A stretch of 57,197 bases of DNA from Planctomycetota bacterium (GTDB lineage Bacteria; Planctomycetota; Planctomycetia; Gemmatales; Gemmataceae), in contig JAJXWW010000017.1 of NCBI GenBank assembly GCA_021781415.1, forward strand, positions 1 through 57,197, given 5' to 3'. The notes below the pieces were generated by a model. It was given only the letters and a program-made list of their open reading frames with translations. It did not search any database and was not told the DNA's origin. The translations under genes were made by a program, and so were the position numbers. Positions 12 to 21,614 of the stretch are shown in pieces; position 1 is the stretch's first letter; each line of letters starts with the position of its first letter.

Positions 12-884
12 ATGCGCTCTTTCCTCGCCAAAACGCTGTCGCGACTGGCTCGATGGGTGCGTCCCAAGGGGATGCCGTATGCGCTGGCCGGGCCGCAGTG
101 GACCGGCGGCGGCTACATCGATAGCTTCCGCCGCACCCGCCAGCCGACGCCCAACGAATTGCTGGCGGAGTTGAAGAATACGGCCTGGACCTGCGCCAGC
201 ATCAACGCCTCGACCTGCGCCCATTATCCACCCAAATTGTATGTGATTACCGAACACCATCATCCGCAAGCCAAGTGCGCGACGAAGGCGCTGTCGCCGT
301 GGAGCGAACGGCGTCTGCGCGCCTTGCCGCATGTGTCGCAACGGCTGACGGGGGGGGCGCGCATCGAGCAAGTGACCGAGCATCCACTGTTGACGCTATT
401 GCAACGTGCCAATCCGATTCATACGGCTTTCGACTTATGGGAGTTGACGACGCTGTATCAAGAGGTTCACGGCAGTGCCTATTGGTATCTCGATCTCGAT
501 CCGCTGCGGCAGACGCCGCGCGGCGTCTGGATATTGCCGTCGCAAAATGTGTCGCCGCGCCGCGAGCCGGGCAGCAATAACATCGTCGATTTCTACCTCT
601 ATCGCAATGGCCGGTGCGAGGAGCGCTTCGCCCCGGAGCAGATCGTCGCCTTTACCTATCCCGATCCGCGCGATCCGTACACCAGCGGTCTGTCGCCGTT
701 GCGCGCCTGCTACGAACAGGCGGCCCTAACCAGCGACTTTGCCGCGTTCAAAAAGGCGAAATTCGAGAATCACGCCGTCCCCGATGCCATCGTGTCGCCG
801 GACGAAGTCATGGGCGAAGAGGAACGCGATCGGCTGGAGACGCAGTGGAACTTCCCTTTCCTTAATACGCGGACGCTCCTATAA
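12..884 (+). CDS. HK97-type phage portal protein, 5' part, interrupted
   Basis: N-terminal about 284 codons of a portal protein, the dodecameric ring at the capsid vertex through which DNA is packaged. Family features seen are the early segment with ALAGPQW, the conserved ELTTLYQEVHGSAYWYL stretch, the PSQNVSPRR strand and the TSGLSPLRACYEQAALTSDFA helix. Codons up to 863 belong to the portal; the last few codons and the stop come from the inserted element. The remaining codons are at 13938-14483 in the same frame. An AGG lies just before the ATG at 12. The large terminase, usually encoded just upstream, would fall outside the window. As it stands the fragment lacks the C-terminal third and should not form a portal ring. 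Confidence 0.85.
   Translation: MRSFLAKTLSRLARWVRPKGMPYALAGPQWTGGGYIDSFRRTRQPTPNELLAELKNTAWTCASINASTCAHYPPKLYVITEHHHPQAKCATKALSPWSERRLRALPHVSQRLTGGARIEQVTEHPLLTLLQRANPIHTAFDLWELTTLYQEVHGSAYWYLDLDPLRQTPRGVWILPSQNVSPRREPGSNNIVDFYLYRNGRCEERFAPEQIVAFTYPDPRDPYTSGLSPLRACYEQAALTSDFAAFKKAKFENHAVPDAIVSPDEVMGEEERDRLETQWNFPFLNTRTLL
851..875 (+). other. attL junction
   Basis: Portal sequence runs up to TTAA (862-865). The element-side arm CTTAATACGCGGACG (861-875) is the exact reverse complement of 13926-13940 at the other end. A serine-recombinase attL is expected to combine a B half (host) with a P' half (element), and this arrangement fits. Confidence 0.8.
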
Positions 885-885
885 T
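880..885 (+). promoter_or_regulatory. Candidate -10 box of the recombinase gene
   Basis: A perfect TATAAT lies 40 bases before the recombinase ATG. The matching -35 window falls on the attL palindrome, so recombinase bound at att could repress its own promoter, and the -35 sequence would differ between integrated and circular forms. The -35 match itself is poor. Confidence 0.4.
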
Positions 886-924
886 GCTCTTAGTAGGTCG
901 CTTATTTCTCTAAGGAGCCAGCTT

Positions 925-2976
925 ATGACCGCGAAACCGCCGAACCGTGCTGTGGCGTTTAGCTACGTCCGCTTCTCCACGCCGGAACAGATGAAGGGCG
1001 ACAGTCTCCGCCGTCAGACTCAAGCAACGGAGGAATGGTGTCAACGCAACGGCATTATTCTCGACACTTCGACAACCCTCCACGACCTCGGCAAGTCGGC
1101 TTTCGCCAAGGCCAAAAAGAAACCGCAAGAGGATGACGACGGTATGGCGTCCGTCCTGGAACTAGCCGATTTGGTGAACCCAGACCGCCGCGCCCTCGCT
1201 GGGTTCTTGGAACTCATCAAGAAACGGTTAGTGCCGCGTGGCGCATTTCTCGTCATCGAAAATTTGGACCGGCTCACCCGTGACGATACCGTACCAGCGA
1301 CCCACCTGCTGACCGGCATCTTGCTCGCCGGAGTCAAGGTCGTCCAGTTGAAGCCGCTAGAGCAAGTGCTGACGGAGCGGTCGGATGGTTACGCGATCCT
1401 CATGGCCGTGATGGAGATGAGTAGGGGTAACAGCGAATCCAAGATCAAGTCGGAGCGCATCGGCGGTGCTTGGGATAATAAGCGGGAACACGCACGCGAT
1501 GGCGTGGTAATGACGCGCAACCTCCCCGCCTGGGTCCAAGTACAAAGCATCGACCGCGACCGCTACACGCTGGCGTTGATCCCGGAACGGGCCAAAGTCA
1601 TCAGCCGCATTTTCACGCTGGCGGCGAGCGGCCTGGGGACATTGCGCATCGCTCAGAAGCTCACCGAGGAAGGCGTACCGGCGTTCGCGCGGCATTTGGA
1701 CGAGAAGGCGATTGCTCGCTATGAGGAGCGCCGCCGTATCGCCGGTAAGCCGCCATTGACGGACAAAGAGCGAGCCGACTTGAACAAGCCAGGCCATTTG
1801 AATTGGCGAACCGGCGAGTGGGTTCCCTCCGCGAGTTGGAACTCAAGTTACATCCTTGACATTTTGACCGACCGCCGCGCTCTGGGAGAGTGTTCGCCAA
1901 GAGCGAGGCGCGGCTTGGCCGATGGACCGGCAATCCCGAACTACTTTCCTCCCGTAGTGGATGAGAAGACGTTTGACATCGTGCGCGCCGCTCTGGCCGA
2001 TAGAAAGCCTCTGGACAGCGAATCACACAAGGGCAGACGCATCGGCAAGCACGTCGATTTGTTCGCCAAGATGGTCTACGACGCACTCGACGGTACGCCG
2101 TACTACACCGCTACCAAAACGGAAGTGGTCGAAAGCCGCCAGTCGCAAAGAGATCGGAAGGAGTCCAGAAAAGTGCGTGGAGCGACAAGATCCAGACGAG
2201 TCGGCGAGCGCCGTCGCTCTCGCATATTGGTGAATGCCCCGTCCGTACATGGGTTGGGACCAAAGAAGTCGTTTCCGATGCCGACGTTCGAGAGGGCCAT
2301 ACTCTCCATGCTCCGCGAGATCGACCCCAGAGAGATTCTCGGTGATACCAACGCGAACGCGGAGGTTGCCGATTTGGAGCGCCGGGCTAGATGGCTCGTG
2401 GAGCGACAAATACAGCTTGGTGCGGAACTACGCCACGGTGACATCCCCATTATTGCCCAGCAGCTCCGCGAACTGAAGGATGAAGAAAACGAACTGGCAA
2501 AACGGCTCGATCAAGCACGACAGCTGGCAGCGAAACCGTTACTTGAGACGTGGCGAGATCTCCTCAAGCTGCTCGATGAGGACGAGGATATGGACGTGCG
2601 GCGACGGCTGCGCTCCGCCATCGCGCGTACCATTGACGTTATTCGCGTCATCATCGTCCCAAGGGGCCGCGACCGGCTGGCAGCGGTGCAGATCGAGTTT
2701 GCTGGTGGTGGAGCGCGGCGCAACTACAATATCATCCACCGTCCGGCTCTGTGGTTGGGAAGCAACAAAGGTATGAGACCTGCGCGATGGTACGTCAATT
2801 CGAGCAAGAGCGTGATTGTGGTCGATTACGAGACGGGCGAGGAAGGGTGGTCGGGTCATTTCCCAGAGCCGGATCTGCGCACCAAAACCGGCGCTGATGA
2901 GGCGCTTGGCTGGCTTGAAAAGTTGCCTCAAGATTGGATCGACCGCTTGCTGGCGGAGGGCACAGAGATTGGTTAG
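925..2976 (+). CDS. Large serine recombinase (integrase of the element)
   Basis: A 683-residue site-specific recombinase that should integrate and excise the element. The catalytic domain opens with SYVRFSTPEQ, whose serine is the expected nucleophile, followed by DSLRRQ and ENLDRLTRD, typical of the resolvase/invertase fold. A recombinase domain follows (about residues 200-360, with RIFTLAASGLGTLRIAQKL), then a long charged coiled-coil region (about 460-560). The CxxC zinc ribbon common in large serine integrases is not visible. The start was set at the ATG after AAGGAGCC (912-919); the longer open frame upstream overlaps the portal. It is the first gene inside attL, the normal position for an integrase. 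Confidence 0.93.
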   Translation: MTAKPPNRAVAFSYVRFSTPEQMKGDSLRRQTQATEEWCQRNGIILDTSTTLHDLGKSAFAKAKKKPQEDDDGMASVLELADLVNPDRRALAGFLELIKKRLVPRGAFLVIENLDRLTRDDTVPATHLLTGILLAGVKVVQLKPLEQVLTERSDGYAILMAVMEMSRGNSESKIKSERIGGAWDNKREHARDGVVMTRNLPAWVQVQSIDRDRYTLALIPERAKVISRIFTLAASGLGTLRIAQKLTEEGVPAFARHLDEKAIARYEERRRIAGKPPLTDKERADLNKPGHLNWRTGEWVPSASWNSSYILDILTDRRALGECSPRARRGLADGPAIPNYFPPVVDEKTFDIVRAALADRKPLDSESHKGRRIGKHVDLFAKMVYDALDGTPYYTATKTEVVESRQSQRDRKESRKVRGATRSRRVGERRRSRILVNAPSVHGLGPKKSFPMPTFERAILSMLREIDPREILGDTNANAEVADLERRARWLVERQIQLGAELRHGDIPIIAQQLRELKDEENELAKRLDQARQLAAKPLLETWRDLLKLLDEDEDMDVRRRLRSAIARTIDVIRVIIVPRGRDRLAAVQIEFAGGGARRNYNIIHRPALWLGSNKGMRPARWYVNSSKSVIVVDYETGEEGWSGHFPEPDLRTKTGADEALGWLEKLPQDWIDRLLAEGTEIG

Positions 2977-3341
2977 TTACACTCAAGCACCTTCTTGAAG
3001 ATTTCTAGGAACATCTCCGTAGGGCGTCGCCAGGCCTTCCACCATGAGTCACGGCGTTTATACTTCCTTGATACGAGCCGCATGGCATCACGCACGTTCT
3101 CCCAGATGGTGTTGAAAAACAATGGCTCCTGGCCGTCCTCGTATATCCAAACATCGCGGTGGCCGTCGCTCCTCTTCATCTTCTGCCCAAGCGCGCGGAA
3201 CATCGCCAGGTCGCGCTGGATCATGCGTAGGCTCCCATATTTACACGCTAAGAGATGCACGTTCAGGCCGCAGTCATCGTCCAGACGTTCATCCATCTCC
3301 CTCCAGCGTTTGAATCGGTCGAGATCGGTGTTCTTTGGCAT
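2973..3341 (-). CDS. Small winged-helix-like protein, candidate regulator or directionality factor
   Basis: A 122-residue protein convergent with the recombinase, their ends overlapping by 4 bases. Residues about 20-55, ending in LRMIQRDLAMFRALGQKM, look like the HTH_11-type winged helix at the start of WYL regulators (SxRTIQRDLxxLRxLG pattern), but no WYL domain follows. A small DNA-binding protein beside a serine integrase is a plausible recombination directionality factor or repressor; this is inference from position and the helix alone. It is divergent from the replication operon, with a palindrome (3375-3395) between them. Confidence 0.6.
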   Translation of the reverse strand: MPKNTDLDRFKRWREMDERLDDDCGLNVHLLACKYGSLRMIQRDLAMFRALGQKMKRSDGHRDVWIYEDGQEPLFFNTIWENVRDAMRLVSRKYKRRDSWWKAWRRPTEMFLEIFKKVLECN

Positions 3342-3374
3342 GCGCCCAGGATAGGGACTGAATAAATGTTAGTC

Positions 3375-3395
3375 AAGCGACGTTTAACGTCGCTT
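3375..3395. promoter_or_regulatory. Palindrome in the divergent intergenic region
   Basis: AAGCGACGT, then TTA, then ACGTCGCTT: a perfect 9 bp inverted repeat in the 170 bp gap between the leftward regulator (2973-3341) and the rightward genes starting at 3512. The location suits an operator for the neighbouring regulator. Confidence 0.4.
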
Positions 3396-3511
3396 TCAAG
3401 CCCCGCTCGCTTGAAGGACAACCAAGCGTTGGTAGCATTTATCCTTCATGCGACCGAGGCCAGCGTCTCCGCGTTGGAGGCGCGGCCACGATCAACAACG
3501 GGAGAAGCAAC

Positions 3512-3844
3512 ATGGTTCGACCTAGTGAGGGTATGCTGGATCTATTCGCATTGCTTTGTGACAGCTTCGAGGATTTAGACATCAGAACGCTCAAGGCATC
3601 AAACCTGTTCGCCGAGTTCTGCGAGGGCATGACTGCGGAGAGCGCGGACGATCTGCTGTTGAAGTTGAAAGTCCTCCTTTGGGTGGCTTCCGTAAGGCTG
3701 GAAGCCTTCGCTACCCTTCTCGGACCAAAATTCCTGAATGTCGTCCACGAATATTGGGAATGCCACCCAAAAGACGTGCAGCATTGTCTTGATATGGCGA
3801 ACGATCTTGACATTGGCCCCAATTACAATCCGTCGATCAACTGA
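3512..3844 (+). CDS. Hypothetical protein, first gene of the replication operon
   Basis: A 110-residue, mostly helical acidic protein with no recognised family. GGGAGAAGCAAC gives a ribosome site before the ATG. It precedes another small gene by about 30 bases and probably belongs to the same early transcript. The conserved-looking core LFAEFCEGMTAESADDLLLK does not suggest a function. Confidence 0.6.
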   Translation: MVRPSEGMLDLFALLCDSFEDLDIRTLKASNLFAEFCEGMTAESADDLLLKLKVLLWVASVRLEAFATLLGPKFLNVVHEYWECHPKDVQHCLDMANDLDIGPNYNPSIN

Positions 3845-3875
3845 CTTTTTAGACACTATTTGGAGGAGCGTGAAA

Positions 3876-4274
3876 ATGTTAAAGTATGATGACATCTTGA
3901 TGCGTTCGGCCATCGCGACCAAATTGGACGATGGCCCACACGACACCGGATTTATCAATCGCAGGACCGGAGAGATCGTATTCCTCCCGGACGCCGAAGG
4001 CAATTGTGAGAATTGGTACGGCCTTGATGTCACAATTGATAGCGTTTTTGACCGCGCTAGGATTGCTGCGAACCAAGACGAATGGATCGAAATTCCGAGG
4101 AAGGTCTTTGTTCCCATTTTCCACGAGGACTGGTGTGAACGTCGGACAACTCGCCCAAGGAGGGACTGGACGCCCTGCACATGCGGGGCAGAGGAACGGA
4201 TACGGGAAGAACGGCAAGATGAAGAAGACGATGCCTTCATTCGAGCATTTTTGACTGAGCATGGGCTGGAGTAG
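3876..4274 (+). CDS. Hypothetical protein
   Basis: 132 residues; the start was chosen at the ATG after GGAGGAG (3862-3868), inside a longer open frame. It contains TGFINRRTGEIVFLPDAEG, similar to the UPF0158-like pattern of small proteins with a paired strand read as a modified tag, followed by a WIEIPRKVFVP segment and a C-terminal acidic helix. The resemblance to UPF0158 is weak and no function is assigned. A terminator-like hairpin follows at 4287. Confidence 0.6.
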   Translation: MLKYDDILMRSAIATKLDDGPHDTGFINRRTGEIVFLPDAEGNCENWYGLDVTIDSVFDRARIAANQDEWIEIPRKVFVPIFHEDWCERRTTRPRRDWTPCTCGAEERIREERQDEEDDAFIRAFLTEHGLE

Positions 4275-4286
4275 TCGGCACAATTT

Positions 4287-4328
4287 ATCCGCCGCTCTTC
4301 CCATTCGGACGGGCGGCGGATTTTATTC
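4287..4328 (+). terminator. Rho-independent terminator-like hairpin
   Basis: ATCCGCCGC (4287-4295) pairs perfectly with GCGGCGGAT (4313-4321), followed by TTTTATT. It ends the transcript of the two upstream small genes. Confidence 0.65.
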
Positions 4329-4332
4329 TGGG

Positions 4333-4373
4333 ATCGGTAAAGTGGCTTTTACTTATTACCCTAATATCGGTAA
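4333..4373 (+). promoter_or_regulatory. Candidate operator with ATCGGTAA repeats
   Basis: ATCGGTAA occurs at 4333-4340 and 4366-4373; the second copy also forms the inverted pair TTACC-N8-GGTAA (4356-4373). The repeats lie just before the HTH gene at 4399, as expected for autoregulation by a small repressor. Confidence 0.45.
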
Positions 4374-4398
4374 GATCGAGGGAGAAAGAGAGGTTCGG

Positions 4399-4818
4399 AT
4401 GACCACACGAGCAAACCCAGTGTATCTGACAAGATTGCGCCGCCTGATTCACAAGAGCGCACAGAACGTCCACACCATCGCACGCATGTCAGGTATTCCG
4501 ACGCCCGTATTGCATCGCTTCGTGAAAGGTGAACGCGGACTCAACGCCGACACAGCCGAGAAATTGGCCAACTACTTGGAATTGCGAGACAATACAGAGC
4601 CATTACCGGCCAGGGTCGTCTTGGACTTAATCGCGCACATCACGAAGGGCATCCGGCACCTAGACGAGCAGATTGAGCGTATTCCCAACAGCGATGAGCG
4701 CGAATCACTAGAAGCGATCCGTCGTGAGTACATGGAACCCAGTCTGACCGACCTGAAACGATTGCTCGGCAAGCATTATCCAGACTTGGTCGAGGAAGAA
4801 ACTACGAACGGCAAGTGA
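4399..4818 (+). CDS. HTH (XRE-like) regulator
   Basis: 139 residues. Residues about 15-60 form a lambda-repressor-type helix-turn-helix (TIARMSGIPTPVLHRFVKGERGLNADTAEKLANYL), followed by a coiled-coil-like C-terminal half that may dimerise. The ATG follows GGAGAAAGAGAGG. Directly upstream are ATCGGTAA repeats and a terminator, so this protein probably starts a new transcript covering the primase and may control the lysis/lysogeny-like switch of the element. Confidence 0.75.
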   Translation: MTTRANPVYLTRLRRLIHKSAQNVHTIARMSGIPTPVLHRFVKGERGLNADTAEKLANYLELRDNTEPLPARVVLDLIAHITKGIRHLDEQIERIPNSDERESLEAIRREYMEPSLTDLKRLLGKHYPDLVEEETTNGK

Positions 4819-4950
4819 GTAGTGTTCGCCCGCCACGCTGTAATGATTGCATCATCGCCTGATTCAAACCCTAGTTGGAGGCGCGGTGACAGGAGCCGCG
4901 AAGAACATGAACACTTTGTATCAACAAGCAGTTTGGGAAACGAACAAAAT

Positions 4951-4982
4951 GGGGCCAACCTTCCAGGAAAGAGGTTGGCCCC
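4951..4982 (+). promoter_or_regulatory. Leader hairpin before the primase-helicase start
   Basis: GGGGCCAACCT (4951-4961) pairs perfectly with AGGTTGGCCCC (4972-4982). The stem ends 2 bases before AGGAG (4985-4989), the ribosome site of the ATG at 4996. In mRNA an 11 bp GC-rich stem next to the ribosome site could damp translation of the replication gene, or act as an attenuator. Confidence 0.5.
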
Positions 4983-4995
4983 GCAGGAGAACCCG

Positions 4996-6525
4996 ATGGT
5001 TCCTCGAATCGCTACGAAAAAAAGTATATCTGAAAATCCGCGTGCGGTAAAGCACCCGGAGCCGTCTTGCAATGGCGACGGACACACACTCCACGAAGCG
5101 CCGGACGACCCCCATCGCCTGGCCCGCCTGTATCTGGATTCCGAGCGCCGTTGTAACCGCAACACTATCGTCAGATGGCGCGGCGAGTTTCATCGCTGGG
5201 ACGGCACGGCCTACGTCCCAACCCAAGACGATCAAGTGTGCGGTTATCTGACCGCTGCCATCAAAAGAGAGTTCGACCGGCTGGCAACACAAGACTTGGC
5301 CGCGTGGTCTTCGGACCAGCCGAAGGACGCCAAGGGTCGCCCCCTCCCGAAACCGTGCTGCCGCAAGGTGACAACCAATCTCACCGCCAACGTAGTACAA
5401 GCACTGGCGAGCATGACGCTGTTGCCCGATAGCACCTCACAACCGTCGTGGCTCGGAGCCAAAACGCCCGTCACCATGCTGCCCGCCCGCGAGATGCTAT
5501 CCTGTCGAAACGGTCTGGTGCATCTGCCATCCGTACTGCGCGGACGCGGGAGACTGTTGCCGGCCACGCCGCAATTCTTCTCCACCAATTCCATCGGCTA
5601 TGATTTTGACCTCAACGCGCCGGAGCCGGAGCAATGGCTGAAGTTCCTGCGCGAAATCTGGCCGGACGATCCGCAGAGCTTGGAGACGTTACAGGAGTGG
5701 TTCGGCTACTGTCTGCTGCCGGACACGAGCCAACAAAAGATTCTTATGATGATTGGGCCAAAACGCTCCGGTCGAGGAACTATCAGCCGCGTTCTGCGCG
5801 CCTTGGTGTGCCCGTCCAATACGGCTAGTTGTTCGCTGTCATCTCTCGGCGGCAGCTTCGGATTGCAAGCGCTGCTCGGCAAGACCTTGGCTATCATTGC
5901 CGACGCCAGATTGTCCGGCAGAACCAACTTGGAGATGATAGCCGAACGCTTGCTCAACATCTCCGGCGAGGATGCCGTGCCGGTGGAGCGGAAGTTTCTG
6001 ACTACGATACATACGCCGCTGGCCGTCCGCTTCATGGTGCTAAGCAATGAACTGCCGCACTTGAGTGACGCTAGTGGTGCCCTCGCCAGCCGCTTCATTG
6101 TCCTGCGCTTTACGAAGAGTTGGTATGGCGAGGAAGATCCCGCCCTGACAAACAAGTTGCTTGAAGAAGTCCCAGGAATCCTGCTCTGGGCCTTGGAGGG
6201 TCTCAAGCGGCTCCGCGAGCGAGGACGGTTCGTCCAGCCATCCTCGGCCCTGGGGTTAGTGGAGACTCTCGCGGACCTCAGCAGCAATATCAAGACCTGG
6301 ATCAAGGAACGCTGCATCGTCGATCCTAAGTGTAGAGACACGCCAGCCGCGATGTATCGAGAGTGGTGTCGCTGGTGCGAAGAGAACCGCCAAGAGCCGG
6401 GCGCTAAGTCAGTCTTCAGCCGCGACATGCACACCGCCTTGCCGGAGCTACAGACTAAAGAATGCCGAGTGCCGGGCAAAAAGAAGGTTCGCTTTTGGTT
6501 AGGTGTTCGACTAAGGACGAGCTAG
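4996..6525 (+). CDS. P4-type primase/SF3 helicase, replication protein
   Basis: A phage/plasmid P4-family replication protein, 509 residues from the ATG at 4996, chosen for AGGAG six bases upstream; the frame stays open back to GTG 4822. The N-terminal half carries the D5_N-like region (RLARLYLDSERRCNRNTIVRW, and FYSTNS-like FFSTNSIGYDFD before the helicase). The SF3 helicase core has Walker A GPKRSGRGT with arginine in the usual lysine position, AIIADARLS as Walker B, and the conserved VERKF and FMVLSNELPHLSD motifs. No complete primase catalytic domain is visible, so priming may depend on partners such as 6978-7394. It drives element replication from a nearby origin, as in P4-like satellites. 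Confidence 0.85.
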   Translation: MVPRIATKKSISENPRAVKHPEPSCNGDGHTLHEAPDDPHRLARLYLDSERRCNRNTIVRWRGEFHRWDGTAYVPTQDDQVCGYLTAAIKREFDRLATQDLAAWSSDQPKDAKGRPLPKPCCRKVTTNLTANVVQALASMTLLPDSTSQPSWLGAKTPVTMLPAREMLSCRNGLVHLPSVLRGRGRLLPATPQFFSTNSIGYDFDLNAPEPEQWLKFLREIWPDDPQSLETLQEWFGYCLLPDTSQQKILMMIGPKRSGRGTISRVLRALVCPSNTASCSLSSLGGSFGLQALLGKTLAIIADARLSGRTNLEMIAERLLNISGEDAVPVERKFLTTIHTPLAVRFMVLSNELPHLSDASGALASRFIVLRFTKSWYGEEDPALTNKLLEEVPGILLWALEGLKRLRERGRFVQPSSALGLVETLADLSSNIKTWIKERCIVDPKCRDTPAAMYREWCRWCEENRQEPGAKSVFSRDMHTALPELQTKECRVPGKKKVRFWLGVRLRTS

Positions 6526-6647
6526 AGTGTCCCGCGTCCCGCGATGTCCCGCGATACTTTCTATTTCGGCTCTAACTCGGAAGAGAGAACTATTAAGTAG
6601 GAACGGCAATGCGAGTTATCGCGGGACATCGCGGGACGCGGGACACT
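6526..6647. repeat. 31 bp perfect inverted repeat of iterons, candidate replication origin
   Basis: Arms 6526-6556 and 6617-6647 are perfect reverse complements, separated by 60 relatively AT-rich bases. Each arm contains three tandem versions of TGTCCCGCG. The left arm begins one base after the primase stop codon. Iterated motifs beside an SF3 helicase gene fit an origin bound by the replication protein. A transcript would also form a very strong hairpin, so a terminator or protein-binding role cannot be excluded. Confidence 0.6.
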
Positions 6648-6678
6648 ACGTTATGGCCAATCGAAGGGGGGAGCAACA

Positions 6679-6915: not shown

Positions 6916-6933
6916 GCATGGCCCTGGGACTTA

Positions 6934-7379
6934 TGCCCCGTTGGGCGATCTATCTTGCCCGTTGACAGGAGACTATCATGGCACGACGTTTTGAATCCTT
7001 CCTCTGGGAGTTGTGTAGCCACCTGTTGGGACCGCCGGAGTACGGCTCCTCCTGGCACTGCCCCTTTTGCGATCCTGACCCGGAACGGAAATCGTGGGCG
7101 AGCTTCTCCGTTCGACCGCCCTTGCGACACTACCCCATAAAGTTCCGCTGCCATCGCTGCAAGGTTTGGGGCGACGAACACGACCTGCTCCACAAGTTCT
7201 TCCACGACGATGAAGAGAGCCAGCAGTTTTGGCTTGACTACGGTCAAGCATTCTACCCACCGGAGTTGCGGTCCCGCCGTGGCTACCCCGACACGGGCAA
7301 CGCGCCGCCAGCCCCATCCATGATGTCCACCAACACCAAACGCGGACAACGGCGTAGCGATAGATCGCCCAACGGGGCA
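6934..7379. repeat. 21 bp perfect inverted repeats flanking the CHC2-like gene
   Basis: The sequence 6934-6954 (core CCCCGTTGGGCGATCTATC) reappears as an exact reverse complement at 7359-7379. The pair brackets nearly the whole gene 6978-7394; the right copy lies within its last codons. It may be a recombination-made cassette border or a pair of protein-binding sites. Confidence 0.7.
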
Positions 7380-7394
7380 CAACGGGAGGACTGA
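6978..7394 (+). CDS. CHC2-like primase zinc-binding protein
   Basis: 138 residues. WHCPFCDPDPERKSWASFSV, followed by KFRCHRCKVWGDEHDLL, has the C-x2-C ... C-x2-C layout and spacing of the CHC2 zinc ribbon found at the start of DnaG-type primases, where it reads template DNA. No TOPRIM domain follows, so it is a detached zinc module. Next to a P4-type helicase without an obvious primase domain, it may supply template recognition; this pairing is inferred. A good GGAG site precedes the ATG. The tail (residues about 100-138) is Pro/Arg-rich and overlaps the 21 bp repeat. Confidence 0.65.
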   Translation: MARRFESFLWELCSHLLGPPEYGSSWHCPFCDPDPERKSWASFSVRPPLRHYPIKFRCHRCKVWGDEHDLLHKFFHDDEESQQFWLDYGQAFYPPELRSRRGYPDTGNAPPAPSMMSTNTKRGQRRSDRSPNGAQRED

Positions 7395-7422
7395 TTGGTA
7401 ATACCAGACATGAGGAGAAACA

Positions 7423-7659
7423 ATGGACACCGGATCTCAGAAATTGAGACGTGCAGCGGAAAAGCGACTCAAGAAAGCTGAGAAGCGTGAACAGCGTAAA
7501 CCTAGGTACGCCGACTCTACCGCGCCGAACGTATCCCTGCCGCGCCGATACGCTGACGGCAGCTGTACGCCGAACCTTGCAAGGTTTCCGAACGGCCCGC
7601 ATTGTTTCGGGCATGACCTCGTTCCCCTTCCTCTTCTCAGAAACAAGGAGATGATATGA
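7423..7659 (+). CDS. Small basic hypothetical protein
   Basis: 78 residues, starting after GAGGAGAAACA. The first 30 residues are very rich in Lys and Arg (KLRRAAEKRLKKAEKREQRK), suggesting nucleic-acid binding; the rest is low complexity. It overlaps the next gene by ATGA, so translational coupling is likely. Confidence 0.5.
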   Translation: MDTGSQKLRRAAEKRLKKAEKREQRKPRYADSTAPNVSLPRRYADGSCTPNLARFPNGPHCFGHDLVPLPLLRNKEMI

Positions 7660-7940
7660 GCGACGAATCGGCCAGCGATGACAAGGGTTCCTGTCGTAAC
7701 CCTATTAAGGCTCCGAAACCCGATGCGACGCGCGGCGGTGTGAAGGGCTGGAAACGCCGATGTGGCGCTAAAACCCGCAAGGGCACGCCTTGCCAGCGCC
7801 CCCCGATGGCGGGAATGACGCGCTGTAGACTTCATGGTGGTGCAACGCCGATAGGAATGGCATCGCCGCACTACAAACATGGGCGGAGATCGAGGTTCCT
7901 CGCCGGGTGGCCGGAGCTACCGCCACGGGAGGACGGATAA
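7656..7940 (+). CDS. HGGxSTG-type small protein
   Basis: 94 residues with RCGAKTRKGTPCQRPPMAG, then TRCRLHGGATP, the CGAxTRxGxPCxxP...CxxHGG pattern of the HGGXSTG domain family common in phages and mobile elements (often near packaging genes). The conserved Cys and His residues suggest zinc binding. The biochemical role is unknown to me. It is the last gene of the rightward replication operon, which meets the leftward cargo block. Confidence 0.7.
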   Translation: MSDESASDDKGSCRNPIKAPKPDATRGGVKGWKRRCGAKTRKGTPCQRPPMAGMTRCRLHGGATPIGMASPHYKHGRRSRFLAGWPELPPREDG

Positions 7941-7956
7941 CGGACTGCTGAGATAG

Positions 7957-7971
7957 CTATGCTTTGCATAG
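7957..7971. terminator. Short hairpin between convergent operons
   Basis: CTATGC, TTT, GCATAG: a 6 bp stem in the 90-base gap between convergent gene blocks. It has no T tract, so a terminator role is tentative. Confidence 0.3.
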
Positions 7972-8030
7972 ATCAAGAAGCTATGGCAGCGACGTAACGA
8001 CGGTGATTCCGACCTCCAAGCTGGCTGCTC

Positions 8031-8771
8031 TCAGGTTGTTGTTCGGGCGTCAGCCGTCTCAATACTAGATTTTGCCATTTGTTCAAACCTGAGCTTAGCT
8101 TCCTTCAAGTCGTTGGAAATGTTAAACACGACGATCAACATTTCAGCCCAGACGCGAGCTACCATCAAGAAAAAGATTGCAGCGACAACGTAGATCAGCG
8201 TTCCGCTCAGCCAATCGCTCAATGGATTAGACTTCTTGGGTGGTTCACTTATCCTACCGAACATACTGTTATCAAAGTCTATTTCTCGTCTTTTGTCATT
8301 AGCACTCGTGGCATCACGCGAGTGCTTTGACAACGCTTCCACAACGGGCATAGCAAAGCGACTGAGGAAGAACCAACTAAAGCAAACAAAGAGAAGCCAA
8401 ACCCAAAGGATGCGGACGATGTAGGGGGTGAGATAGCGCTTGAAGCGAACGTCCGTGATGAGGTCAATCGCCCAGAAAACCTTGCCCAGAACCTGAACGA
8501 ATGAGATTCCACCTCTAGGGCTATATTCAGGTAGATAGCCAGCAGAATCGTTTTCCTGATCAGATACAACCGCGTGGGTAGCTCTCACGGGGGGCGGCGA
8601 GTTTGGGGCAAGGCTGTCGCTTATGATTGGGACGGCATAGGCGGCGACGGGCGCGTCAGGGTCGGGAACCCGGAGAGGGCAGCCACAGCGCCGACACTTA
8701 CTGCGCGCGCCGATCTTGTCTGCGGGCGCTTTGAGAGTTGCTTGGCACTTTGGGCACTGAAATTCGATCAT
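8031..8771 (-). CDS. Zinc-ribbon membrane protein (DUF4282-like)
   Basis: 246 residues. The N-terminus MIEFQCPKCQATLKAPADK with the later CRRCGCPLRVP is the zinc-ribbon start common in planctomycete membrane proteins. Two long hydrophobic segments follow, about residues 135-160 (ILWVWLLFVCFSWFFLSRF) and 205-225 (IYVVAAIFFLMVARVWAEMLIVVF), matching the DUF4282 layout. It lies on the strand opposite the replication genes, so it is probably cargo. A membrane protein carried by a satellite-like element could affect superinfection or lysis, but nothing here shows that. Confidence 0.65.
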   Translation of the reverse strand: MIEFQCPKCQATLKAPADKIGARSKCRRCGCPLRVPDPDAPVAAYAVPIISDSLAPNSPPPVRATHAVVSDQENDSAGYLPEYSPRGGISFVQVLGKVFWAIDLITDVRFKRYLTPYIVRILWVWLLFVCFSWFFLSRFAMPVVEALSKHSRDATSANDKRREIDFDNSMFGRISEPPKKSNPLSDWLSGTLIYVVAAIFFLMVARVWAEMLIVVFNISNDLKEAKLRFEQMAKSSIETADARTTT

Positions 8772-8868
8772 GGGGTGGCTCCTCATGGAATGCGCCGCTG
8801 AGGCGATGATTACTTTGTATTGAGGGTTCCCGTACAGCCCGCCGTGTATGTCGTGTCACATGCAGCAC

Positions 8869-9039
8869 TCACTTCGTAGCTTTGAATTCACCACTACAGT
8901 TCTTCGTGCCGTTCGGTGAATCGCTGCACCGCCCTGCCCAGCTTTTGCACTGCGAGCAGAGAACCTTACCGCACTTGCTGCATCGGTAGGTTTGCCACTG
9001 GGTCTTGCCGCAAGCGTGACAGACTTCGTTAGACGCCAT
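8869..9039 (-). CDS. 56-residue zinc-ribbon protein
   Basis: A short frame, MASNEVCHACGKTQWQTYRC, followed by SKCGKVLCSQC, with further Cys residues in GRCSDSPNGTKNC. Eight or more cysteines in paired CxxC arrangements indicate one or two zinc sites. GGGGTAAC precedes the ATG. Small size makes it easy to miss; the Cys spacing supports a real gene. Function is unknown; it lies in the leftward cargo block. Confidence 0.6.
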   Translation of the reverse strand: MASNEVCHACGKTQWQTYRCSKCGKVLCSQCKSWAGRCSDSPNGTKNCSGEFKATK

Positions 9040-9141
9040 CGTTGTTACCCCTCTCGCTGAGAGTCTCGGTCAACTTGCTTCGTCGCCCCGGCACGATGCC
9101 GAGACTCTTCATCTGGCGAAGTTAAGTCCAACCCGCGTGAC

Positions 9142-10872
9142 TCATTCCAGGTCGTACTCTGGCATGTCGTATTTATCCGACCAAGGTTTGAGGAAATCCT
9201 CTCCGCCTGTGCCGGACGAGTGGGGCGGTGTGATAACACCCCTTTCCATGATCTGATTCAACTCCTCAGCAACGCGGCGCTCCTTCCCGCCTAGAATCCG
9301 ACGCTTCTTCTCCCGCTCTGTCGCGTTGCCGTTGGATAGCGGCAGAGGTTTGCGACCTTGATACGTCTGGAAAGTCTGCCACCACAAATCCAATTCCACC
9401 TCAGTCGAGAAATCCCTGATTAGAACACCTTTCTTCGTCGTCAGTACCCAACGACCGTCTGTGTTCTGGTATTTTCGCCGGTGACGCACTCCGAGTAAGC
9501 CCATTTTCTCCAGCACCTCGAACCCTTCTGGTAGTTGGGCCTTGTTGTTTGAGATACGCCTGGTCTCACAATGCCCGACAAGGATCTCAACTCCTTGTGA
9601 GGATTGGGCGTCGTTGCGCTGACCTTCGGGAATGTCGCCATCGCCCGCCGGTTTCGCTGGCGGCTCCGAAATCTGTTCCGTAGAAGAATGTCCAGGTGCA
9701 AGAGCCGTTTCACGAGGTTCCGAGGGATGCGGTTCGGTGGTGGGCGGTTCATGGGGCTGCTGCTCAATCGGTGAAGGGTCTGCTAATTCATCTACAAGTA
9801 TCTCGATGGAGTGCGAGTTGGCTTCACCATCAATGTTATGGACTATGCCCTCTACCTGGAATAGATGTGGTTCCGTCGCTCCCTCTTGACGTAGCTGTAG
9901 GAACTCTCCAAACCTCGGCAGCGTGTAGAGTTTAACGGTCTGAGCGCCACTATCGTGAGTGATACTGGCCGTGATCGGTGGGTAATTCTTGAGGATACGT
10001 CGCTGTCGCCGGTCGATCTCATCACAGAGGATCGCCCGAAAGCGCTGCTCGGCATCAGATGGCGTTTTGATCCGGTAGACTGTTGGTGGACGGCCAAGCG
10101 CTTTCGCCAAGTCCTCATCAAGCCTGCTTCGAGGCAGATCAGCGATGAACCATTCCACCGGCAGGGTATGAAGAACCTCTTTACCCAGATCTGTGCGATA
10201 GGCATAAGTGCCGGTCACTTCGCCGATAGCCAGCGCGTGCCACATTCTCACCAAGGGAAGGATAACCAAGTCACCCTTTCTGATCTGAGAACGGAACGCC
10301 CAGACCTGGTACACCGCCATGCCAGCTTGGTTTGTGGTTTCCTCGGTGTTAATCCTTCGATACATCTCCGCCAGTTGCTCTTTGCTAGTGATTCCTGAGA
10401 GGTCGCGCAGCTCGTTCCAGTGGATCGTCGCCACGTCGTTTTCCAGGGCAATCGGCTCCTCGTCTCCCCAATAGCCCGCGCGAACGACCCATACCGCCGT
10501 TGCTCCGTCTTCGACGGGTGCGCGGTCGAAGGAAATGTCGTCGCTGACTTCTTCATCTTCCACTGGCGGGACGGGGCCGGGCTGGACTTGCTCCTTGTCG
10601 TAGGAGTCCCGCACAGTAGACAGCCTCGTGACACCGTGGGCCTCCGTGCCATCCCCGTACAACACCCGCGCGCCGTAGTCTGGATAGTTGGTCTTAAAGC
10701 GCTGCTCCCGCCACTGAGCTACGGTTATGTCGTTCCACGCCGCCCTCTGATAAGGGTAGCTCGCCAGGCCGTCCCTATCAATCCGTACCTTCCGCCCATC
10801 GGCGTGACGGAACTTAACCGTGAAGCCTTCAACGTTGAATATCTCCGACTCGATGCTATCGACTCTTGACAT
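9142..10872 (-). CDS. EVE/PUA-like sensor protein, cargo of the element
   Basis: 576 residues. Residues about 125-275 (AVWVVRAGYWGDEEPIALEN, WNELRDLSGITSKEQL, RKGDLVILPL, AIGEVTGTY, VEWFIADLPRS) match the N-terminal EVE/PUA-like module of Mrr-type restriction proteins, which is linked to recognition of modified bases. Here no nuclease domain follows: the middle (about 375-430) is a Pro/Glu/Ser-rich linker, and the C-terminus (about 440-576) is an unassigned, charged region. The first 95 residues form another unassigned domain. GGGAGGACACTGTC before the ATG supports the start. It could sense modified phage or host DNA, as a defence or regulatory protein; that is inference from the domain alone. 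Confidence 0.65.
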   Translation of the reverse strand: MSRVDSIESEIFNVEGFTVKFRHADGRKVRIDRDGLASYPYQRAAWNDITVAQWREQRFKTNYPDYGARVLYGDGTEAHGVTRLSTVRDSYDKEQVQPGPVPPVEDEEVSDDISFDRAPVEDGATAVWVVRAGYWGDEEPIALENDVATIHWNELRDLSGITSKEQLAEMYRRINTEETTNQAGMAVYQVWAFRSQIRKGDLVILPLVRMWHALAIGEVTGTYAYRTDLGKEVLHTLPVEWFIADLPRSRLDEDLAKALGRPPTVYRIKTPSDAEQRFRAILCDEIDRRQRRILKNYPPITASITHDSGAQTVKLYTLPRFGEFLQLRQEGATEPHLFQVEGIVHNIDGEANSHSIEILVDELADPSPIEQQPHEPPTTEPHPSEPRETALAPGHSSTEQISEPPAKPAGDGDIPEGQRNDAQSSQGVEILVGHCETRRISNNKAQLPEGFEVLEKMGLLGVRHRRKYQNTDGRWVLTTKKGVLIRDFSTEVELDLWWQTFQTYQGRKPLPLSNGNATEREKKRRILGGKERRVAEELNQIMERGVITPPHSSGTGGEDFLKPWSDKYDMPEYDLE

Positions 10873-11256
10873 GACAGTGTCCTCCCGCTGTGTCGCATCA
10901 TCTGGCGATGGTATGCGTGCGGAGAAGTGCTGTCAAGGAAAATCATCGTCGCTAATCTGAGATTCTGAATGTGAGGTTACTCATCTCTTTCTCGGACGCA
11001 TCTCTGATGTGGCCTTCCTCCCAGGGCCGACAGGGCACAGTCCGTCCCATCCATAATCGCATAAGCAACCGTTAGCTCGTATTACGTCGTAATACCACAG
11101 GGAAAATTTTCCTGAATTTTCCATAAATGGAGTAGACGAATCCGAATCTAAGCCGTAGAATAGTAGTAGAGCTTCGGACGATCCGAAGCAAACGAAAATG
11201 GCCCCGCGATGCGCTAACATCCGAGGCCGTGGGCAACCCTTTATGGAGGGCTACCG
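10873..11256. other. Non-coding divergent control region
   Basis: 384 bases between the divergent cargo gene and the rightward small-gene block. It contains the 12 bp palindrome GGAAAATTTTCC (11101-11112), followed by a second partial copy AATTTTCC, and a hairpin with 8 bp arms GCTTCGGA/TCCGAAGC (11171-11189). An open frame of 79 codons on the minus strand (10981-11220) has no ribosome site or family match and is not accepted. Promoters for both directions probably lie here. Confidence 0.5.
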
Positions 11257-11505
11257 ATGTCGATTCTATCCGCTTCCCCTGCCTCCGTCTCTATCCCTAC
11301 GGAGCGCATCCCCTGCGGCACTCGCCGCGTTCCTATCCGGCTGAGTATCGAGACGCCGAGCGGCAAGCACCGCCGTTTGAGTGTCACTATCGAGCGCACG
11401 CCTACCGATTCCGATGCCGTCGTCATGCACAAGGCGTCTACGGCCTATCGGCAGCGGCACGGTTTCTCGTCTCGCATCGTCGCCATCTACGTCACCGGCA
11501 GCTAA
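11257..11505 (+). CDS. Small hypothetical protein
   Basis: 82 residues, with GGAGGG 10 bases before the ATG. It contains RRVPIRLSIETPSGKHRRLSV and a strand-rich end. First of the rightward small-gene block; a hairpin of the recurring type follows. No family recognised. Confidence 0.55.
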   Translation: MSILSASPASVSIPTERIPCGTRRVPIRLSIETPSGKHRRLSVTIERTPTDSDAVVMHKASTAYRQRHGFSSRIVAIYVTGS

Positions 11506-11516
11506 CCGCGTCCGCT

Positions 11517-11545
11517 GGGGGAGCGTTCGCCCAGCGCTCTCCCTA
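11517..11545 (+). repeat. Intergenic hairpin, copy 1
   Basis: GGGGGAGCG, a short loop, then GCGCTCTCCC: an imperfect copy of the hairpin found at 12555 and 13388, lying just after a stop codon. Probably a terminator or mRNA-end structure. Confidence 0.5.
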
Positions 11546-11587
11546 CGGCCTGATATTGGAGTTTACCCATCTGTAAAGGAGTTGATT

Positions 11588-11833
11588 ATGCGTTACGTCG
11601 CCTACAGCGGACCCGATGATTACGTCGAATCCAGCGACGACTTGGAGGAGCTACTCGCCATCGTCTGCCGCTTGGTAGATCCGACCTTTGCCGAGGACGT
11701 GGCAATCTGGGAGGGAGAGAGCAAGCTCGTGGCCGTGGTGCTGGAAAACGGCGCGGTGATCCGTTTCGGTAGTCCCGAATGCGCTACAGAGCGTCCGTCC
11801 CTTCTGCCCTTCGCCAATGGGAGGGCACGATGA
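11588..11833 (+). CDS. Small acidic hypothetical protein
   Basis: 81 residues after AAGGAGTTGATT. Acidic (DDYVESSDDLEELLAIVCRLVD), perhaps a DNA-mimic-like or regulatory protein, but no family is recognised. It overlaps the next gene by ATGA, indicating translational coupling. Confidence 0.55.
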   Translation: MRYVAYSGPDDYVESSDDLEELLAIVCRLVDPTFAEDVAIWEGESKLVAVVLENGAVIRFGSPECATERPSLLPFANGRAR

Positions 11834-12063
11834 GCGATCCCAACTTACTCCTGTCCGCTGAACTGAGAGCCGTAGCCGACGCGCTCCGCCACGTCCGCTC
11901 CCGTCTCGTCCGCATGGTAGCCAATGGAACGATGCCGGAATGGGCCTGGCCGGACGCGACAACGGTGCAAGTGATCGGCTTGGACGTGGCGAACGCGCTA
12001 GAGCGATTGGCGAGGGACGATGAGCCGAGCAAGACGCCGACGCACTTGGACGAACGGCGCTGA
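11830..12063 (+). CDS. Small hypothetical protein
   Basis: 77 residues, coupled to the preceding gene by ATGA. Helical (LSAELRAVADALRHVRSRLVRM) with a central Trp-rich WAWPDATT. No family recognised. Confidence 0.55.
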   Translation: MSDPNLLLSAELRAVADALRHVRSRLVRMVANGTMPEWAWPDATTVQVIGLDVANALERLARDDEPSKTPTHLDERR

Positions 12064-12128
12064 GCAGCAATACGGAACGGAGTAGAGGCATTGTGTTTTA
12101 CCCTAGTAGCCCATTGGAGAATCGAATC

Positions 12129-12542
12129 ATGGCGAAGAAACGTGAACAAGAGCAAGCGAGTGAAGGCATCCGGCACGATCTGGAACAGCCGGAGGGACTG
12201 TTGCCGGAGCAAGCGCGGATGAACGGTCAAGCGGGACAACCGCATGAGGAACCCGCTGAGGAAGAACAGGAGGAGCCGGATCGCTTGTCCCGCAAGGAAG
12301 CGGCCCATCGCGTTATCGCGGAGATCGACGGCGATACGACGATGACGGAATTGGCCGACAAGGCGGACGCGCTGTTCGTGGCCGGTCGTGGCGGCGATGC
12401 AGAGTACAGCGACACCGACTCCGCTGCTTGGCATCTGCGCAAGGAACTGGAAACGCTGGAAGGCATCGGCCTTGTGGCGTTGTCGTGGGAATGCGTGATC
12501 CATCCGCTCGTCCCGCGTCTGGGACTGCCGAAGGGCAAGTAG
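12129..12542 (+). CDS. Hypothetical protein with winged-helix-like C-terminus
   Basis: 137 residues. The first 60 are charged and low complexity (Glu/Gln/Pro-rich). The rest, SRKEAAHRVIAEIDGDTTMT, then ELADKADALFV and WHLRKELETLEGIGLVAL, resembles a small winged helix in which the last helix and wing read DNA. Possible transcription factor of the small-gene block; low certainty. A recurring hairpin follows. Confidence 0.5.
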   Translation: MAKKREQEQASEGIRHDLEQPEGLLPEQARMNGQAGQPHEEPAEEEQEEPDRLSRKEAAHRVIAEIDGDTTMTELADKADALFVAGRGGDAEYSDTDSAAWHLRKELETLEGIGLVALSWECVIHPLVPRLGLPKGK

Positions 12543-12554
12543 CAGTACCGAACC

Positions 12555-12579
12555 AGGGAGCGTGGCCCGCGCTCCCCTC
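12555..12579 (+). repeat. Intergenic hairpin, copy 2
   Basis: AGGGAGCG, TGGCCCG, then CGCTCCCCT followed by CTTTGTG. Second copy of the recurring hairpin, 12 bases after a stop codon. Confidence 0.55.
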
Positions 12580-12613
12580 TTTGTGACCCTAATAACTACT
12601 ATGGAGACCTGTT

Positions 12614-12919
12614 ATGTGGAAATGTTTGGAATGCGGACGCAAGTACCAGTCGGCCAAGTCTGCCGAGCGCGCTGCCAACTACGGCTGTCCGCGCTGCGGC
12701 GGTGTAGACATTGACGTGGACGTGGAGATTCCAGCTACGGTCTTTCGTCCGTGCAGCTGTGGGAGTGGGCTTGCGTCTGAGGAAGTGTTGGACGCTCGGT
12801 CCATCTACATCTGCCGCGTTTGCGACAAGTGCCGTGAGGACAAGCTGCGGGGCTTTCGACCGGAAGTGCTGAGCGATCCCAACTACGAGTGCGACGAACC
12901 CATCGAGGAGGACCAGTGA
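12614..12919 (+). CDS. Zinc-ribbon protein
   Basis: 101 residues with CLECGRKY ... CPRCGG, CSCGSG and CRVCDKC: three Cys pairs that should bind at least one zinc. The start resembles rubredoxin-like or DNA-repair zinc ribbons, but no specific family is certain. GGAGACCTGTT precedes the ATG. Its stop overlaps the next start (TGATG). Confidence 0.6.
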   Translation: MWKCLECGRKYQSAKSAERAANYGCPRCGGVDIDVDVEIPATVFRPCSCGSGLASEEVLDARSIYICRVCDKCREDKLRGFRPEVLSDPNYECDEPIEEDQ

Positions 12920-13107
12920 TGAACGCTTGTGATAAGTGTGGCATTACTTTGTGTGCTGCTGACGAGAACGTCTACCGCGTGGATATGTCGGTCGGACCCT
13001 GCCCAGACGCTCCGCATGGCTACGGTTGTGAGGTCGAACTGTGCGAGCGTTGCTACCTGATCTACTGCGAAGGACTGGACGAAGTAGATCGGGAGGTGCG
13101 GCTATGA
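12919..13107 (+). CDS. Small Cys-rich protein
   Basis: 62 residues, coupled to the upstream zinc-ribbon gene by TGATG. CDKCGITLCAAD and CELCERCYLIYC-like spacing (VELCERCYLIYC) indicate a zinc knuckle. Overlaps the next gene by ATGA. Function not recognised. Confidence 0.55.
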   Translation: MNACDKCGITLCAADENVYRVDMSVGPCPDAPHGYGCEVELCERCYLIYCEGLDEVDREVRL

Positions 13108-13379
13108 GCGTATCCTTTTCTCTTGGCTCACTCGTCGCCACGCCCGCCGCCTTGGAAGCGCTACAGAGTGCCCGCCAATCGCCCGCTGAGTTTCTCTCCC
13201 GTCATGCCTCTGGCGATTGGGGCGACGTAGACGCAACCGACCGAAAGCTCAACAACGCTGCCGTGAAGAACGGCGAGCGCATCCTATCGGCCTACAAGAC
13301 CAAGGACGGCGAACGCATTTGGATCATCACTGAGGCGGATCGCGGTAGTACCTGCATACTGCTGCCGGAAGAATACTAA
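13104..13379 (+). CDS. Conserved small protein of mobile elements
   Basis: 91 residues. SFSLGSLVATPAALEALQ, SRHASGDWGDVD and the WIITEADRGSTCILLPEEY end match a small family that I recall as common on plasmids and integrative elements, with no established activity. The high conservation of this pattern suggests a real role. Coupled to the previous gene by ATGA and followed by the cleanest copy of the recurring hairpin. Confidence 0.7.
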   Translation: MSVSFSLGSLVATPAALEALQSARQSPAEFLSRHASGDWGDVDATDRKLNNAAVKNGERILSAYKTKDGERIWIITEADRGSTCILLPEEY

Positions 13380-13387
13380 CCACTAAC

Positions 13388-13411
13388 GGGGAGCGTGGCC
13401 CAGCGCTCCCC
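13388..13411 (+). repeat. Intergenic hairpin, copy 3
   Basis: GGGGAGCG, TGGCCCAG, CGCTCCCC: a perfect 8 bp stem followed by TCTCTTT. The best copy of the hairpin repeated in this block; terminator-like. Confidence 0.6.
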
Positions 13412-13431
13412 TCTCTTTGGAGGATCGAACG

Positions 13432-13659
13432 ATGAAGAAGAAAGCCAAACGCGGCTTCGCTGCCATGAGTGCCGAGAAGAGGCGCGAGATTGCCGTCAAG
13501 GGCGGGAAGGCATCGCAGGCCAAAGGGACGGCACATCGCTGGACGCGCGAAGAGGCCACTGAGGCAGGACGCAAGGGTGGCAAGGTGTCGCAAGGTGGCG
13601 GCTCTCGCTTTGATAGTGAGTCCGGCAAGGCGGCGGCGCGGAAGCGTGGTCGGCGGTAG
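13432..13659 (+). CDS. KGG-repeat (YciG-like) protein
   Basis: 75 residues, strongly basic, with repeated KGG units (IAVKGGKASQ, GRKGGKVSQGG), the motif of the YciG/stress-induced acidophilic repeat family. These small proteins are thought to bind nucleic acids, but their role is poorly known. TTTGGAGGATC provides the ribosome site. It is the last gene before the right end of the element. Confidence 0.65.
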   Translation: MKKKAKRGFAAMSAEKRREIAVKGGKASQAKGTAHRWTREEATEAGRKGGKVSQGGGSRFDSESGKAAARKRGRR

Positions 13660-13925
13660 GGAAGACTGAGGCAGGAGAAAACTACTTAGCGGGTATCTAA
13701 TATTTGCTAGGTAGGTTTTTCCGTTTGCCCTAGCTCTGCCGTTTCCTTCGCTCTAGCTCTAGCGTGCCGGAATCGCGTCGTAGGCGTGCGTAGGACGGGG
13801 CAGGGGAGCGGTCGGACGGGAAAACGGCCTAGGGAGCGGAGATCGTCGCGTAGCAGCGATCCTCGCTGCGGCATTAGCGTGCCGGAAGGGAAGCGGACGG
13901 CGCAGAGGACGGAGATAGGGCTTAC
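13660..13925. other. Non-coding right end of the element
   Basis: No gene seen. TAGCGTGCCGGAA occurs twice in direct orientation (13760-13772 and 13875-13887). Purine-rich GGGAGCGG-type motifs repeat between them. The copies lie on the P-arm side of attP and could be accessory binding sites, or they may be chance repeats. Confidence 0.4.
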
Positions 13926-13955
13926 CGTCCGCGTATTAAGAAAATTCTAGGGAAC
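13926..13955 (+). other. attR junction
   Basis: The element arm CGTCCGCGTATTAAG (13926-13940) is followed by portal codons from 13938. The shared TTAA is at 13936-13939. Joined to the attL arm through TTAA it gives a perfect 24 bp palindrome, the reconstructed attP centre. Confidence 0.8.
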
Positions 13956-17500: not shown

Positions 17501-17514
17501 AGAGGAGATGCAAC

Positions 17515-21610: not shown

Positions 21611-21614
21611 TTCC

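Follow-up and report, generated by a model that had tools for sequence, protein, structure and literature searches.

The contig JAJXWW010000017.1 of a Planctomycetota bacterium (assembly GCA_021781415.1), analysed over 57,197 nucleotides and referred to below as the window, carries a 13,104-bp integrated element (850..13953, + strand) at tryptophan codon 279 (W279) of a phage-type portal gene that belongs to a cluster of head genes. The element encodes a predicted large serine recombinase and a predicted P4-family replication protein, and we put at roughly 70% the likelihood that it silences the head cluster until it excises. From the sequence we infer that the recombinase is active, that packaging is lost and that excision reverses the loss. 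A 54-bp attachment site of the element (attP, two 26-bp arms around a central GA) would be joined by the enzyme to conserved portal codons, leaving the portal cut after residue 279. No replacement for the lost portal half turned up in the element, so that for as long as it is integrated we would expect neither a full-length portal nor, as a consequence, a packaging motor. On excision, the portal would be restored exactly at a GGAAC repeat and a circle set free, which the primase-helicase of the element could help to replicate.

Both flanking halves of the interrupted gene match PHROG portal families, in keeping with an earlier note on this DNA that had described a portal gene split by an integrase-bearing element. 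The N-terminal part (12..848, +), delimited also by alignment with 25 intact relatives, comprises 279 codons before the junction and, as integrated, reads through 11 further element-encoded codons to a stop at 882-884; the C-terminal part (13953..14483, +) comprises 176 codons, and both retain open frames within the window. The ends of the element lie elsewhere than the earlier note had placed them. Joining codons 861-863 and 13938-13940, as that note did, yields an open frame of 465 codons, but the ten residues straddling the join are absent from 25 of 25 uninterrupted portals aligned (20 genera by handle; 25 of 29 relative portal frames, with four partial frames excluded), and the note itself had named residues missing from uninterrupted homologues as evidence against its join. 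In the relatives, tryptophan codon 279 continues directly into the residues encoded from 13953, and an in-frame 5-bp direct repeat, GGAAC, at 847-851 and 13951-13955 is the junction; the portal rejoined there has 455 codons (279 + 176), which we take as the true product. Restoration of the gene by excision thus stands as a prediction from sequence, at GGAAC and not at the codons first proposed. The TTAA palindromes at 862-865 and 13936-13939 and the inverted TTAATACGCGGACG motifs close to 862/13935 are internal to the element. That 862-13935 are nevertheless its ends, and that the relatives lost ten codons, is almost certainly wrong: the TTAA join is open, but it conflicts with the 25 relatives, with the divergence of other interrupted portals directly after codon 279 (below) and with a dyad whose centre is GA, and these ends were rejected.

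The joined element ends form a 26-GA-26 dyad in which 20 of 26 positions are complementary around the central GA; the best dyad centre in 2000 shuffles of the same bases scored 11.9 on average and 17 at most. As integrated, the left attachment region (attL, 822..877, +) contains GGAAC at 847-851 with the central GA at 848-849, followed by the element arm, and the right one (attR, 13926..13979, +) contains the other arm, GGAAC at 13951-13955 and the central GA at 13952-13953. The relatives' alignment, the repeat and the dyad together define the limits of the element. A dyad attP around a short core is the geometry expected for a large serine recombinase, and the dyad fits the enzyme of this type that the element encodes: a 683-aa integrase in an open frame (925..2976, +), with Pfam Resolvase and Recombinase domains and a match to phrog_95 integrase (1.2e-43). 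It has two cysteines only, and the zinc ribbon usually described for large serine recombinases needs more than two. The hallmarks of integrative elements that use such enzymes are a recombinase beside one attachment site, a dyad attP with a short core and a target that is intact in relatives; the element has all three.

Interruptions at portal codon 279 occur in other sequences as well. A 5.1-kb IMG/VR contig (L143) starts in element DNA, has a right arm similar to that in attR and passes into portal sequence at that codon; the final 69 bases of its element DNA match the window element at 77%, and the preceding 413 give only short or chance-level matches. Database searches provided 256 portal proteins, taken from at most the best 120 of 971, 147 and 211 matches, and 179 of them extend to the site by a motif rule. 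Nine of these 179, among the matches listed, end there with a tail like that of the window portal (the tryptophan, then approximately KIPFLNTRS-L), 11 residues long in eight cases and 8 in one (P0133); all nine come from JGI metagenomes and are 61-81% identical to the window portal over the aligned part. Four further proteins (P0129, P0145, P0152 and P0162) lack such a tail and end at most seven residues from the tryptophan; two more (P0219 and P0242) run on in another sequence at the site. At the level of loci, 94 were taken from viral and genome collections, and the motif rule scores 75 of them as intact at the site, with 64 distinct site sequences. The other 19 include L143, interrupted at the site, L210 (G006), interrupted earlier, L142, intact by eye, and L212 and L213, which hold no portal; the remainder are unclassified. 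Searches from the element side added little: the window integrase found 0 relatives among viral contigs, the attR pattern had 0 matches in genome contigs and in viral contigs only the one known from L143, and the left-arm pattern matched two loci, in neither of which a portal was detected by tblastn. Because of the 20/26 dyad at the rejoined ends and the interruption of this codon in other sequences, we do not regard the insertion as a chance event. Junction, dyad and recurrence together support the view, first put forward in the earlier note, that a portal gene serves as the attachment site of a site-specific element.

The target of the insertion shows signs of vertical inheritance. Over 22 genomes, 13 of 19 splits are common to the portal and RpoB trees (200 label permutations gave 0.175 on average and 2 at most), with a Mantel r of 0.693 that 0 of 5000 permutations reached. 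The large terminase subunit (TerL) shares 6 of 11 splits with RpoB over 14 genomes (permuted mean 0.24, maximum 2 in 300), in a tree that leaves aside G026, G029 and G032, whose TerL picks were weak, and genomes outside the 22-genome RpoB set. Ratios of nonsynonymous to synonymous substitution (dN/dS) between same-genus genomes are 0.04-0.19, with some dS near saturation and with two out-of-frame G001 protease rows excluded; against G003, the two portal halves give 0.12 and 0.04. In G002, the cluster end and the downstream host genes follow the order of the window over ~30 kb; the G002 contig breaks off within the cluster, and searches found no portal in that genome. G000 and G002 have the cluster end in the same position, and stretches that precede TerL in G000 occur in G001 on the same contig, downstream of the cluster. 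Upstream flanks are unlike between most genera compared and partly common to G029, G030 and G039; the G003 contig has a single upstream gene, which has no match in G001. The tracking of RpoB and the purifying selection, together with at most one tail-like gene, describe a head cluster seen at window 13953-23900, L063:13494-14813, L069 and L187-L211, which in Gemmataceae-type genomes is a candidate gene transfer agent (GTA)-like or otherwise exapted capsid cluster. The ordinary phage helper envisaged in the earlier note is hard to reconcile with a cluster that tracks the host tree, is under purifying selection and has one tail-like gene.

The gene order of the cluster is TerL, portal, protease, HK97 capsid, a 151-aa protein, adaptor, several immunoglobulin-like or uncharacterised proteins, ParB-like, ABC/GNAT and small terminase. 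An upstream contig, C190, ends with TerL and the portal start, and the window contig begins inside the portal. The two share an exact 127-base overlap (window 1-127), and the assembly-graph break at the window start falls at the portal start, not at the element ends. Downstream of the portal, all on the + strand, lie a prohead protease-like gene (14590..15435; phrog_80 head maturation protease, 1.2e-7, with a better match to phrog_617 major head protein, 6.4e-10), the HK97-type major capsid gene (15573..16886; TIGR01554, 204.5 bits), the gene of the 151-aa, possibly tail-like protein (16979..17434; phrog_5707 of unknown function, 9.7e-11, and phrog_9522 major tail protein, 4.8e-8) and a head-tail adaptor-like gene (17509..18492; phrog_442). 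ParB-like, ABC-ATPase/GNAT and small-terminase-like genes (21411..23869, +) close the cluster, as judged from PHROGs matches of the G003 orthologues and from synteny. Among the 14 cluster genes scanned with PHROGs, no integrase or lysis family was found, and a tail family only in the 151-aa protein, besides the head-tail adaptor. Near portals elsewhere, where many contigs end early, a protease was present at 18 of 25 loci from genomes and 32 of 32 from viral contigs, a capsid at 12 of 25 and 31 of 32, and TerL at 20 of 25 and 22 of 32. Of 298 genomes, 82 have matches to the N-terminal portal half, and 69 of these belong to the family of the window; the C-terminal half has matches of any strength in 49 of the 95 family genomes. 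Six of the 25 named-genome records found by portal are labelled Gemmataceae or Gemmatales and most others Planctomycetota or Planctomycetia; because only these six carry the narrower labels, the family name is our own probable assignment. Split or frame-broken portals are present in other family genomes. At L190 and L198 (G020 and G065), the gap between portal and protease holds other genes, one of them transposase-like by eye.

Within the element, the integrase and primase genes are both on the + strand, co-oriented with the portal. A Cro/C1-type helix-turn-helix protein of uncertain start codon (4261..4818, +; Pfam HTH_26 above cut-off) precedes the P4-family primase-helicase C-terminal protein (4822..6525, +; TIGR01613 at 131.5 bits against a cut-off of 108.7; DUF5906 and D5_N). 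An HGGxSTG-domain protein follows (7656..7940, +; NF041373 above cut-off), then two cargo genes on the - strand, one for a DUF4282 protein (8031..8786; Pfam PF14110 above cut-off) and one for a 576-aa protein (9142..10872) in which residues 126-295 resemble the PADLOC candidate defence family PDC-S02 (E 1.2e-39). Small co-oriented open reading frames (ORFs) taken from the ORF list occupy 12093..13659 (+); the last (13432-13659) has KGG motifs, and those others that were scanned gave sub-threshold zinc-finger matches or none. The inventory agrees with the earlier note, which had listed an integrase, a P4-type replication gene and small cargo and had seen no virion genes. Pfam detected no portal, capsid, terminase, tail, relaxase or conjugation families in 16 chosen element ORFs, nor AlpA, the Cro/C1-type protein being present instead; in a PHROGs scan of 14 of the 16, the sole virion-related match was a weak one of the KGG protein to a tail pilot protein (E 0.02). 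The primase has matches at any strength in 38 of the 95 family genomes, and at least three family contigs carry both a primase and a related recombinase.

Related recombinases occur at other genes and other codons. In G006 (L064:1-2500), a serine recombinase with 26% identity to that of the window over 608 columns begins just past a portal break at NPVHNGFD and is co-oriented with the portal. The G055 contig (L062 end) stops at the same codon as the G006 insertion (NPVHN-FD), and no related recombinase was found in G055. The prohead protease is split in G073, where its parts, one of them a Pfam Peptidase_S78 fragment, flank ~16 kb that starts with a recombinase; a 12-bp repeat (AACCCGGTCGTC) at both junctions was read by eye and missed by a scripted repeat search. 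A recombinase lies at about the same protease codons (VVLWAH) in G064, where one junction was seen, and in both genomes (L149 and L153, two genera) it is oriented opposite to the interrupted protease. Among 29 recombinase loci run, with incomplete output for about five, six (L009, L011, L022, L023, L026 and L029, from six genomes) adjoin broken Mg-chelatase/ChlI genes by Pfam, which we take from their domain make-up to be comM/yifB-type, and one adjoins an OPT transporter fragment by Pfam; the others were judged by eye only. G034 and G045, examined as further head-gene insertions, gave no clear case. In G045 (L281:7661-8545), a recombinase lies directly against a gene whose only Pfam match is to a metallo-beta-lactamase domain and which, by eye, could be comEC-like. 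The reading of L008 as a peptidase-gene interruption was a guess by eye with no Pfam match and was dropped.

Several observations weigh against the proposed switch. The genome itself, available as a binned assembly that could lose small circles, has one copy of each junction tested, and neither an excised circle nor a restored portal was seen. No AlpA-like or other excisionase was identified in the element. The nine tails are known at the protein level only, and one of them (P0021) has a different residue directly after the tryptophan, where the crossover point may differ. Strong portal matches (at least 118 bits) occur in only 31 of the 95 family genomes, the other matches being distant. Finally, related recombinases break ordinary host genes, and the choice of a head gene need not be a packaging adaptation.

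Other accounts of the insertion draw on overlapping evidence. The element might disable a gene-transfer system that could otherwise cure it, an idea already published for competence genes, which prophages and islands are thought to break so as to avoid being cured, as described in the sections of PMC12637031 used here. Such a role is possible, even if we do not favour it: the target behaves like a GTA-type cluster in its trees and dN/dS and recombinase relatives sit in comM/yifB-type genes at 6 of 29 loci, but the GTA function of the cluster is putative and other relatives sit in unrelated genes such as OPT. Moreover, comM is also simply a common conserved insertion target. A true satellite relationship to this head cluster, with the element excising when the cluster is expressed and travelling in its capsids, as has been proposed for helper-embedded phage-inducible chromosomal islands (HE-PICIs), seems doubtful. 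The layout of the element, with integrase and primase co-oriented with a head gene and a DUF5906 replication gene, has a precedent in the HE-PICIs treated in the consulted parts of PMC10111431; yet scans of the chosen element ORFs found no terminase or capsid families (no search was made for packaging signals), the cluster has no more than one recognised tail-like gene, and the recombinases of G073 and G064 face against the protease that they interrupt. In a broader scheme, a serine-recombinase family would have become specialised for a GTA-like head cluster that Gemmataceae have domesticated, with one portal codon as its home, an on/off switch of a host-owned capsid as its effect and the particles as its vehicle after excision; this would make the element a satellite of a GTA and not of a phage. 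We offer the scheme tentatively and think it unlikely.

Two further explanations concern the cluster more than the element. If the cluster were an ordinary mobile head module of a prophage or satellite, its agreement with the host tree might reflect a narrow host range. The dissimilar upstream flanks of most genera compared, the 32 portal loci from the viral contig collection and the 6 of 19 splits not common to portal and RpoB would then find a ready explanation, but the 13 shared splits, the co-located cluster end of G000 and G002 and the presence of the G000 upstream stretches on the same contig in G001 make the proposal improbable. Less probable again is an accidental insertion into a dying prophage, devoid of regulatory meaning. 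Decay would account for the finding of no more than one tail-like gene, and of neither a lysis nor an integrase family, among the 14 cluster genes scanned, for the other genes seen by eye between portal and protease in some relatives and for split or frame-broken portals in other family genomes; it would not account for purifying selection on head genes on both sides of the junction, for portal matches in 69 of the 95 family genomes, 31 of them strong, or for repeated hits on the same codon. We retain reversible silencing of the head cluster as the preferred reading.

Known systems place the element more closely. HE-PICIs (Tommasini, Mageeney and Williams 2023; PMC10111431) are, in the parts of that paper drawn on here, satellite-sized elements that sit in late head genes, portal sites included; elements that enter genes usually bring a replacement for the part that is lost, and HE-PICIs are credited with “regulated gene integrity” instead. 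The window element resembles them in lying within a phage late gene, the portal, in having a DUF5906 replication gene as well as an integrase and a primase that read in the same direction as the target, and in bringing no replacement sequence, so that the gene is broken until excision. According to the same source, HE-PICIs have tyrosine integrases only (the 11capE clade), AlpA next to the integrase and lambda-like helper prophages, whereas the window element has a large serine recombinase and a Cro/C1-type helix-turn-helix protein and resides in a planctomycete, in a head cluster that is vertically inherited and has no more than one recognised tail-like gene. Its surroundings, judged for a helper prophage, are head genes only, in a cluster that follows the host tree. 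Because the integrase is not of the tyrosine type and AlpA is not found, we do not class the element as an HE-PICI; most likely, it acts in the manner of HE-PICI regulated gene integrity, on a vertically inherited GTA-like head cluster rather than on a helper prophage.

Other satellites share single traits with it. P4 itself has a recombinase of the tyrosine type and, to our knowledge, the phage-inducible chromosomal island-like element (PLE) of Vibrio cholerae is not located in a portal gene. PLE is likewise a satellite that encodes a large serine recombinase and, as the portion of PMC6002521 cited here describes, differs in responding to the lytic phage ICP1. The P4-family primase-helicase domain is common to the window element and P4-like satellites (PMC8628076, in the part consulted), from which the element differs in its serine recombinase. 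Of the set psu, delta, sid, alpA, epsilon and alpha that marks such satellites, library scans of the element, run with no dedicated models of the other proteins, yielded a P4-family primase domain only, and no family match named psu, delta, sid, alpA or epsilon. The target cluster, in turn, resembles GTAs and viriforms, which the consulted part of PMC9662315 characterises as endogenised head genes of caudoviricete origin that co-diversify with the host: TerL, portal, protease, HK97 capsid, adaptor and small terminase are caudoviricete-derived proteins, and co-diversification is seen in the 13 of 19 splits, the Mantel r of 0.693 and the 6 of 11 splits of TerL. The cluster, described here from its genes, departs from GTAs in having at most one recognised tail-like gene.

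Satellite-like elements within portal genes are not in themselves a novelty, because portal sites have been published for HE-PICIs (PMC10111431, as far as the sections used here extend), and the earlier note knew of none in planctomycetes. No earlier report that combines a serine recombinase, a planctomycete and a vertically inherited target was found among the papers listed in searches of the open PubMed Central literature. The finding points to a vertically inherited head cluster of Gemmataceae with few or no recognisable tail genes, whose function could be probed directly by setting genomes that have the insertion against genomes that lack it. If our reading is right, the element would be a natural, reversible knock-out of a suspected planctomycete gene-transfer machine, and its recombinases a family with a precisely known, conserved target codon. 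What is new relative to the known systems is the recombinase class (serine), the phylum (planctomycetes) and the vertically inherited target; if the reading holds, helper-embedded insertion has also come about through another class of recombinase, in another phylum and at the expense of a head cluster apparently owned by the host.

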